This document shows, in pieces, positions 10,506 to 12,809 of a stretch of DNA of 64,000 nucleotides. Source of the DNA: Gilliamella sp. ESL0443. GTDB lineage: Bacteria > Pseudomonadota > Gammaproteobacteria > Enterobacterales > Orbaceae. The notes under the pieces are model-generated. The model did no database searches. It was not told where the DNA came from and saw only the letters and a program-made list of their open reading frames with translations. The stretch's first letter is position 1; each line of letters starts with the position of its first letter. A program made the translations under genes and the position numbers. The DNA lies in NCBI RefSeq assembly GCF_019469165.1, contig NZ_CP048263.1, positions 1,798,001 through 1,862,000 of the forward strand, in the 5' to 3' direction.

Positions 10506-10591
10506 GCCGTGGTGGTGAAATTGGTAGACACGCTATCTTGAGGGGGTAGTGCTCTAAGGGCATGCGGGTTCAAGTCCCGCCCACGGCACCA
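10506..10591 (+). tRNA. leuU: tRNA-Leu (anticodon GAG)
   Basis: An 86-base tRNA with encoded CCA (10589-10591). The 7-bp acceptor stem pairs GCCGTGG (10506-10512) with CCACGGC (10581-10587). The anticodon stem CTATC/GGTAG encloses a loop with GAG at 10540-10542. A class II long variable arm (TGCTCTAAGGGCA) and the T-loop GGTTCAAGTCCC are present. The sequence closely resembles E. coli leuU, and it follows secG as there. Its 3' end is the integration site of the degraded element described downstream. Confidence 0.97.
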
Positions 10592-10700
10592 ATTTAATAA
10601 ACAGGAACATTCTTTAAAATCCTTTAAACCACACCAAAACCAGTATAAACAAGGCTTATAGCCTATTTTACTATTCTATAAGCATCAGTAAGATACATTT
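10577..10700 (+). repeat. attL-like repeat at the 3' end of tRNA-Leu
   Basis: The tRNA 3' end plus about 110 bases of flank recurs in degenerate form at 12613-12718. Shared blocks include CACCAATT, CATTCTTTAAAATCCT (16 bases identical), GTATAAA and TAGCCTATTTT. A tRNA 3' end duplicated on the far side of a segment carrying integrase remnants is the usual signature of att sites. The distal part (GCCTATTTTACTATTCT, then CATCAGTAAG and TACATTTA) recurs a third time at 11683-11751. Confidence 0.7.
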
Positions 10701-10710
10701 ACATTCATAT

Positions 10711-10769
10711 TTTTGGGGACTATATTAAGGACTACGTGAACATAGTCCTATAATTTCATAGTCCCAAAA
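10711..10769. repeat. Nested inverted repeats with GGACTA motifs before integrase start
   Basis: An outer dyad pairs TTTTGGGGACTAT (10711-10723) with ATAGTCCCAAAA (10758-10769, one base shorter). An inner dyad pairs AGGACTA (10728-10734) with TAGTCCT (10743-10749). So the core GGACTA occurs four times, two in each orientation, ending 9 bases before the integrase-like ATG. G-rich repeats directly before an integrase gene often serve as integrase arm sites or autoregulatory operators; that role is inferred here. Confidence 0.6.
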
Positions 10770-10778
10770 GGTGAAAGT

Positions 10779-10823
10779 ATGCCTAAAAGAATAGCTCCAA
10801 TGACTGATACACAAATTTTGTAG
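10779..10823 (+). pseudogene. Truncated tyrosine-integrase start (14 codons)
   Basis: The ATG at 10779 opens a frame reading MPKRIAPMTDTQIL and then TAG at 10821. This resembles the first residues of P4-family tyrosine integrases, which commonly begin MPxxxAPLTDTQI before the DUF4102 arm-binding domain. Its position, about 190 bases past the tRNA and pointing away from it, is the usual place for such an integrase. Everything after residue 14 is missing and replaced by primase-like sequence. The match is short, so the identification leans on context. Confidence 0.55.
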
Positions 10824-10824
10824 T

Positions 10825-11114
10825 TATCTTGATGCGCTTGATTATCCTAATGGGATGTTTATGGGAGGTTTGGGGATGATCACCCCTTTAACCCAAGAAG
10901 ATATTTGTATCATGCTTATATTGAATATATACGCAATACAGGCTTAAACAACCTTTTATCGCTCACACAATTTGGTACATCACTTAATTATGCAATGAAA
11001 GAAAACGGTAAAAATTATATCCGCAAAAGATCAAATAAAGGAATGAGTACAAACGTAGAGATTAATACCTATACTAGTCAGGATTGGCTACCAAGAGCAG
11101 AAGAACCTAGTTAG
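10825..11114 (+). pseudogene. C-terminal remnant of P4-type phage/satellite primase
   Basis: The frame from 10825 reads YLDALDYPNGMFMG...MITPL. After a frame change near 10880-10895 it continues PRRYLYHAYIEYIRNTG, LSLTQFGTSL, YIRKRSNKGMSTN and DWLPRAEEPS to a TAG at 11112-11114. The RYLYHAYIEY...LSLTQFG...KG..TN...WLP pattern is what I recall of the extreme C-terminus of P4 alpha-like primase/helicase proteins. There is no upstream primase or helicase domain, so only about 95 codons of the tail survive and one frameshift splits them. The fragment from 10905 could still be translated from a TTG but is unlikely to be functional. Confidence 0.6.
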
Positions 11115-11203
11115 TTGTTATTATTTGTTATCATATAAATCGCTTAATTTTGGCGTTTTTTTGTTACAATTAACGAAATAAATAATAATGGCTTTTCTCT
11201 ATA

Positions 11204-11599
11204 ATGAAAAAAATAACTAGTTGTATTTTTATAATTTGTTTAATTATTCCTAATATTCTTTTTGCAAACGATAGAAATAAAAGCGTTGAACTTAGAATAA
11301 AAGTATTCAATGAACATAAAAATATTACGACTTGTATTTGGGGATATGCATCTGAACAGATTAAAAAAACTCAACATTCATCAGAACAAATCGCTTTTGA
11401 AGCTATTGTTTCTTGTGATGATGTTATAGAAAAAATGAGGCTATATAATCGAGAATACATTAAATTAGCTTATAAGGATGATCTGAGAAGTAAAGGATTG
11501 TTGTTATACAGTGCGGAGAAGCAACTTTGGGAGCAAAAACAAGCATGGATAAATAACATCCAAAATTATATTGATCTTAAAAGAAAAAATGGTGATTAA
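11204..11599 (+). CDS. Small exported protein of unknown function (island cargo)
   Basis: A 131-aa protein with a clear signal peptide: a Lys-rich start, hydrophobic core about residues 5-19, and likely cleavage after LFA at position 21. The mature part is helical, charged, and has two cysteines (C44 and C71), which could form a disulfide in the periplasm. I do not recognise a family. It lies inside the leuU island remnant, on the same strand as the primase fragment, with 89 AT-rich bases in front. It may be cargo of the element; the length and composition argue for a real gene. Confidence 0.65.
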   Translation: MKKITSCIFIICLIIPNILFANDRNKSVELRIKVFNEHKNITTCIWGYASEQIKKTQHSSEQIAFEAIVSCDDVIEKMRLYNREYIKLAYKDDLRSKGLLLYSAEKQLWEQKQAWINNIQNYIDLKRKNGD

Positions 11600-11682
11600 T
11601 TACTAATATTGGGCTAAGTCATAAGTTCTATTTCCAACTAAAATAAAAAAGTGAATACCTAAAGTGAACACTAGTTAATAAC

Positions 11683-11751
11683 AAATCCTAAAGTGTTAAC
11701 CGCCTAAAGCCTGTTTCACTATTTTGCAAGTATCAGTAAGTTACATTTATA
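11683..11751 (+). repeat. Third, partial copy of att-flank repeat
   Basis: The stretch containing AAATCCTAAAG, GCCTGTTTCACTATTTTGCAAG, TATCAGTAAG and TACATTTAT (in parts) matches the distal half of the repeat at 10577-10700 with scattered substitutions (GCCTATTTTACTATTCT, CATCAGTAAG, TACATTTA). It sits between the two small exported-protein genes. The rest of the gap (about 11600-12004) holds nothing else I can identify. Confidence 0.6.
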
Positions 11752-12004
11752 ACCACGTTTTTAATTATATGCTTATTTATGTGAATCTTGTATAACTAAA
11801 AATTTTATAACGATAGAAAGAACCGTCAAATAAAGATAGGAATAAATCAAATCACTAGAAATACCCTTTGACTGAAATTGAAAGTCTACATAGTTATATT
11901 GATAAGGTTTGATAGAAAATGAAAATTTCATTAATGCAAAGTCTAACATATAATTGATATTGAATAATAATTCTCATATTATTATTCAAAAACAAAAGAA
12001 TGTT

Positions 12005-12445
12005 ATGAAAAATTTTATTCTTAGCATGGTTAGTCTAATTCTATTCGGTTGTGGTGAGAGTGATAATAAAGTTCTCAAAGAATATCTTGTGGGCGATTGG
12101 CAATGCACTATGATATATAGTATAGGGCTAAATGTATCCCCAGAAGAAGAGCTTAAACATACCACTGAGCCTGAAGATTTTACAATTAAATTTAGAATAT
12201 TAGATGATAAGCTTTATGAAATTAAAAATGATGGAACAAAACAAGCTATCGATGTCAACGGCTTTAACAGTACAGTAAATGAAATATGTTATGAAGCAAA
12301 TTGTACTCTGAAACAATATTTAGAAATCAAGGATGACGACTCATTTAACAACATAATAACGAAACGCTTAAAAAAACTCAATAATCACACAGATACTATT
12401 GATTTTAGATCTAAAATCGAAACAGTTTGTAATAGAATAAAATAA
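12005..12445 (+). CDS. Small lipoprotein of unknown function (island cargo)
   Basis: A 146-aa predicted lipoprotein. I chose the ATG at 12005 because it begins MKNFILSMVSLILFGCGES, a lipoprotein signal with lipobox LFGC and lipidated Cys at residue 16. The longer frame from 11954 adds a polar segment that would bury the signal. Ser/Asp-free positions after Cys (GE) do not clearly mark inner-membrane retention, so outer-membrane anchoring is possible. The mature part starts YLVGDWQCTM, a pattern seen in small lipocalin-like proteins, and has four more cysteines. I cannot name a family. It is the last gene of the island remnant. Confidence 0.65.
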   Translation: MKNFILSMVSLILFGCGESDNKVLKEYLVGDWQCTMIYSIGLNVSPEEELKHTTEPEDFTIKFRILDDKLYEIKNDGTKQAIDVNGFNSTVNEICYEANCTLKQYLEIKDDDSFNNIITKRLKKLNNHTDTIDFRSKIETVCNRIK

Positions 12446-12612
12446 GTATCAGAAATAACACTTTATTTGCTTATAGATACTTTAATATTTATTAGTAACA
12501 AATTTTGTGCAACTATTATTAATAGATAGGATACATACACTAGTAAAAAATTTGGCCATTGGCTAATTATGCTGCATATGTTATTGTTCTGAAGTATTCA
12601 TGAGATTTAAAA

Positions 12613-12718
12613 GATCCGCCACCCATTCACCAATTCAATATTCAGCAGCATTCTTTAAAATCCTGTAAAGCACATCAAAAAGAGTATAAATAGTTTGTAG
12701 CCTATTTTGTTATTTTAA
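12613..12718 (+). repeat. attR-like degenerate copy of tRNA-Leu 3' flank
   Basis: GATCCGCCACCCATTCACCAATTC (read as CCGCCA, CACCAATT) corresponds to the leuU end CCCGCCCACGGCACCAATTT. It is followed by CATTCTTTAAAATCCTGTAAA, AGTATAAA and TAGCCTATTTT in the same order and spacing as at 10577-10700. The tRNA part has decayed and could not form a stem. Apart from this repeat, the 364-base gap between the lipoprotein gene and mukB holds only the mukB-end hairpin. Confidence 0.65.
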
Positions 12719-12770
12719 ACGAGGCAAATACCAATCATACTTTTTGATTAGATTGAACGCTACCATATAT

Positions 12771-12789
12771 CGCCGACATAAAGTCGGCG
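12771..12789 (-). terminator. Hairpin downstream of mukB
   Basis: CGCCGAC (12771-12777) pairs with GTCGGCG (12783-12789) across a 5-base loop, 21 bases beyond the mukB stop. The stem is GC-rich but the minus-strand sequence after it is ATATATGG rather than a T-run, so it is at best a weak intrinsic terminator. Confidence 0.5.
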
Positions 12790-12809
12790 AATTAGTTTGT
12801 TAAATTAAA

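Follow-up and report, generated by a model that had tools for sequence, protein, structure and literature searches.

Three stacked left ends beside tRNA-Leu(GAG) point to serial insertion and decay of satellite-like elements in Gilliamella

The stretch of Gilliamella sp. ESL0443 DNA analysed here (64 kb, in the following the window) carries three element left ends, with two classes of integrase arm-type sites among them, in the 2,221 bp that separate the tRNA-Leu(GAG) gene leuU from mukB. We consider it very likely that leuU is a recurrent site at which satellite-like elements with P4-type tyrosine integrases piled up head to tail and subsequently decayed. At least two, and probably three, successive insertions would be represented, and the repeats are best read as three stacked left ends, and probably not as the two borders of a single element. 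An earlier sequence-only reading of the same DNA had proposed an old, decayed tRNA-targeted integration; that general proposal is supported by the integrases found at leuU in related genomes and by the variable distance between leuU and mukB. The kind of event is ordinary, namely tandem accretion and decay, and the useful addition is an arm-site code for each integrase type.

The repeat in the 3' flank of leuU is real, the four sequence blocks by which it had been described being present, in order and in place. Positions 10587–10649 and 12628–12690 are 84% identical over 63 nt, with a second block in addition, and a BLAST search of the whole 2.40-Mb genome with positions 10560–10780 returned the distal copy as the one other significant match (E 4.5e-17; next match 0.13). 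A profile of the repeated spacer (about 135 bp) was built from 39 copies in other genomes, each just upstream of a P4-type integrase gene and none from the window's own genome. This profile matches the window exactly three times (Table 1), the best E value among 20 dinucleotide shuffles being 0.95. The middle match (11702–11761, with arm sites that reach to about 11814) was missed in the sequence-only reading, which had counted two copies.

Table 1. Features of the leuU–mukB interval, in window coordinates
Feature	Position	Strand	Evidence
leuU, tRNA-Leu(GAG), integration target	10506..10591	+	ARAGORN; Rfam tRNA
Left-end spacer copy 1	10584..10720	+	Spacer profile, E 9.4e-34
Terminator-like hairpin in copy 1	10652–10664	+	Hairpin scan
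Promoter-like TTTACA-N17-TATATT in copy 1	10698–10726	+	Promoter-like scan
Class A arm-type sites, two direct GGACTA and two inverted TAGTCC	10715..10764	+	Sequence reading; class from 39 loci
Integrase remnant, codons 1–13 (MPKRIAPMTDTQI)	10779..10817	+	Translation; alignment to intact class A integrase genes
P4-type primase C-terminal remnant, one 2-nt frameshift	10816..11114	+	Pox_D5, E 2.6e-8
ORF of 131 aa, signal-like N-terminus, orphan, cargo or passenger	11204..11599	+	
Element right end, first part, truncated	11650..11715	+	Right-end profile, E 9.7e-8
Left-end spacer copy 2, 5' truncated, decayed class C arm sites (TATAACT)	11702..11814	+	Spacer profile, E 4.6e-8
ORF of 163 aa, lipoprotein-like, cargo or passenger of element 2	11954..12445	+	
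Left-end spacer copy 3, arm sites lost	12628..12714	+	Spacer profile, E 1.4e-14
Terminator-like hairpin beside mukB	12770..12790	+	Scan and alignment

The comparison genomes are relatives from species other than that of the window. Across the genus, 80 P4-type (PF13356) integrase loci were examined, and the spacer is present at 39 of them: 16 at leuU, 11 at tRNA-Ala, seven at ssrA and five in tandem or unassigned places. The spacers end about 60–80 bp before the integrase domain and have the orientation of the integrase. The order within the left end is a target-specific core, the common spacer with a terminator-like hairpin, a promoter-like site (TTTACA-N17-TATATT or TATGCT), arm-type sites and int; in almost every copy, the promoter-like site and the arm sites overlap. 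Judged from its sequence, the segment of about 135 bp is the left end of the element, comprising a putative replacement terminator for the tRNA gene, a putative int promoter and putative arm-type integrase sites. In the KplE1 intS system, the int promoter overlaps attL, and tRNA, attL and int are co-directional (PMC2951348). The same co-directional arrangement, with a promoter-like site over arm-type sites, is found here, but unlike KplE1 intS, four classes of arm site occur on one spacer.

These four classes (A, GGACTA; B, AGGTATA; C, AGTTATA; D, GGGGGTA) are defined from the 39 loci, and the arm-binding domains of the corresponding integrases, which would recognize the sites, have a median identity of 95% within an arm class and 69% between classes. 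Arm class follows the arm-binding domain (Mantel r 0.80) rather than the target gene (Mantel r 0.24), and it offers a sequence-only way to read stacked fossils. It is quite possible, if short of probable, that all of these belong to one Gilliamella element family with a common spacer and at least four distinct integrase/arm-site specificities. If so, the four specificities could let related elements share one tRNA in tandem without mutual excision, and fossils that have lost their integrase would become assignable to an extinct integrase type.

The right end of the element is also conserved, with two direct arm sites about 65–70 bp before the core. In arrays of the relatives, a complete right end is followed by the next spacer about 14 bp further on, which shows that tandem arrays exist. 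Both ends have the same arm class in G026 and in the elements at loci L057, L072, L076 and L077. They differ in two leuU islands, those of G008 (L042, A/D) and G023 (L046, B/A), where the mixed ends suggest integrase module exchange or fused composites.

The earlier reading placed integrase and primase remnants between the outer copies, and both are confirmed (Table 1). Like its counterparts in G024 and G016, copy 1 leads on into int; after 13 codons the int start is joined to the primase C-terminus, apparently by a deletion through a short ATT match. The two blocks are separated by about 12 kb in G008 and by about 10 kb in G010 and G026, and the primase remnant has 70% DNA identity to the intact elements of G008, G010, G023 and G026. 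A second fusion is found farther downstream, where the truncated right end, corresponding to positions 51–116 of the 403 in the right-end profile, breaks off where copy 2 begins and is joined directly to this copy of another arm class. The right-end profile has this single match in the window.

These fusions bear on the proposal, also made in the sequence-only reading, that the outer copies bound one element, with attL at 10587, attR at 12613 and decay in between. The int start, the primase end and the distal repeat do follow each other in the order expected of one element, but a third spacer with class C arm sites lies inside, the right end stops short at 11715, and no right-end profile match, and hence neither right-end sequence nor right-end arm sites, was found before 12613. 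We therefore regard a single element as unlikely, and a pair of repeats at a tRNA flank need not represent attL and attR of one element. Even less probable is an origin of copies 2 and 3 from one left end that was duplicated or recombined locally, with no insertions of their own. The copies are similar and close together, as one would expect of such an origin, but copy 2 has more in common with the class C left end at leuU in G007 (80% identity over 114 nt, E 2e-21) than with copy 1 (77% over 61 nt), and arm class differs between the copies. A local duplication of the chromosomal leuU flank itself was also considered and rejected, since the spacer occurs at ssrA and tRNA-Ala as well, and the sister genus (G035) lacks it. 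Ordinary dispersed repeats, which are common in AT-rich intergenic DNA of bacteria and were named in the sequence-only reading as the finding that would speak against integration, can be dismissed almost entirely, since the window's own genome has no further significant copy, the relatives' copies lie upstream of P4-type integrases or in remnants linked to tRNA or tmRNA genes, and the numerous copies remote from integrases and tRNA genes that this reading would need were not seen.

In the stack of successive insertions that we favour, each insertion would involve recombination at the tRNA 3' end, presumably by a P4-type integrase, and would bring in a left end made up of the spacer with its replacement terminator and int promoter, class-specific arm-type sites and int. 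Newcomers would insert between leuU and the older elements and so produce a head-to-tail pile. In element 1 (class A), almost nothing would then have survived between int codon 13 and the primase C-terminus, and a later deletion would have joined its right end to the left end of element 2 (class C). The latter would have been left with one ORF and no int, and a third, older left-end spacer would have survived beside mukB. Copy 3 adjoins mukB, its end lying about 55 bp short of the mukB terminator. It represents the left end of a further element and not attR of element 1; in the insertion order that we infer, it is the oldest remnant. It could also be part of a composite element, and not a separate insertion. 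The terminator-like hairpin beside mukB is the only mukB-side sequence common across the genus. A conserved attR flank on that side was considered and rejected, as the alignment of relatives contains none past this hairpin.

The sequence-only reading held that the leuU 3' end recurs together with its flank, and this is correct for the flank only, since CACCA is the sole part of the tRNA common to the leuU 3' end and the distal repeat. To the left of the distal CACCA (12601–12627), the tRNA-end core score is equalled by 9% of shuffles; with the match beyond CACCA at chance level, a degenerate tRNA core at 12613 was rejected. No readable tRNA core is present at copy 2 or copy 3 in the window, where the attachment sites themselves are not seen. 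Clear TTCAAGTCCCGCCCAC cores, which are duplicated tRNA 3' ends, are found in G002, G008, G013, G023 and G026. In four of these five elements (L068 of G002, L042 of G008, L046 of G023 and L041 of G026), the right core reads CCCACGCACCAA, which is the tRNA sequence CCCACGGCACCAA minus one G. The shorter distal core may be the element's own version of the core, with crossover near CACCA. A free attP form was sought in viral contigs, with one core match; because that contig also has an integrase and a following left-end spacer, it was taken as integrated DNA and not as proof of excision, and the candidate was rejected.

That leuU might be an integration hotspot in related strains is borne out across the genus. 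Ten genomes (G008, G010, G011, G012, G016, G017, G020, G022, G023 and G026) have a full-length integrase of about 415 codons immediately after leuU, and others have broken integrases, integrases cut by a contig end, or left ends without int. Among the 16 genomes with both genes on one retrieved stretch, leuU and mukB are separated by 427 bp (G033) to 13,070 bp (G001), and secG adjoins leuU in all 33 related loci retrieved. A clean empty leuU site, expected to join a single repeat to mukB, was looked for in Gilliamella and not found; the nearest approach, G033, still has one left end and an int-start fragment. The gene order after leuU in the sister genus is rimP-nusA-infB. In G000, rimP is at about 530 kb, about 1.28 Mb from leuU, which indicates that the ancestral leuU–rimP junction has been broken in Gilliamella. 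Integrases with PF13356 and PF00589 domains stand beside the tRNA or tmRNA 3' end in relatives at leuU, ssrA and tRNA-Ala, and 13 int codons are all that is left of one in the window. In bee-gut Gilliamella, the three genes are common hotspots for satellite-like elements; the literature searched gave no earlier description of this.

As in P4-like satellites (PMC8628076) and PICIs (PMC6092414), the intact relatives combine a P4-type integrase with an alpha/D5-type primase. The element of G010 encodes an integrase, a protein similar to gp3 and terminase small subunits, an AntA antirepressor, and a primase of 789 aa that contains Zn-ribbon, Toprim and D5 domains; by its sequence it resembles phage satellites. 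The strict P4-like set consists of psu, delta, sid, alpA, epsilon and alpha in addition to the integrase (PMC8628076). Within that set, a Pfam search of G010 found the integrase and primase only; unlike P4-like satellites, the element has no detectable psu, sid or delta, nor AlpA, and because psu, delta and AlpA were not seen, we do not file it as strictly P4-like. PICIs have int, primase/rep and sometimes terS, without structural genes (PMC6092414), and the terminase-small-subunit-like gene of this one intact relative is a further likeness to them; int, primase and the terS-like gene are all present in G010, and AlpA is absent. Accretion and decay have been modelled for ICEs and IMEs (PMC5704250). 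Both there and here, serial site-specific insertions at one gene end are followed by loss of integrase and other genes, and stacked remnants with attachment-site sequence are left. The known cases, among them CIMEs (cis-mobilizable elements, which lack an integrase but keep both attachment sites and have a further element integrated at the same site), derive from ICEs or IMEs, whereas the relatives here are satellite-like, and the window, in which int loss and stacking are seen, has no intact attachment core: the right attachment site of element 1 is deleted and the cores are unreadable. For the same reasons, the remnants are unlikely to be mobilized in cis. In any case the stack is probably no longer mobile, since no PF13356 integrase was found in the host genome; its tyrosine recombinases are two intact Xer-sized proteins (310 and 320 aa) plus a fragment.

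The two ORFs preserved in the stack had no PADLOC match that would indicate a defence function. No relatives of the 131-aa ORF were found in 35 genomes. The 163-aa ORF, for which no named Pfam domain was found, is part of a diverse family, of which 24 of the 35 Gilliamella genomes contain one to four members each. Other genes also occupy the leuU region in relatives. A 603-aa lepA-like gene lies between leuU and mukB in G002, G006, G030 and G032 only. Downstream of leuU in G029 (L059), 11 similar ORFs (about 275 aa) stand in tandem beside an ORF of 1,318 aa, a row that by its sequence resembles an amplified immunity-gene array.
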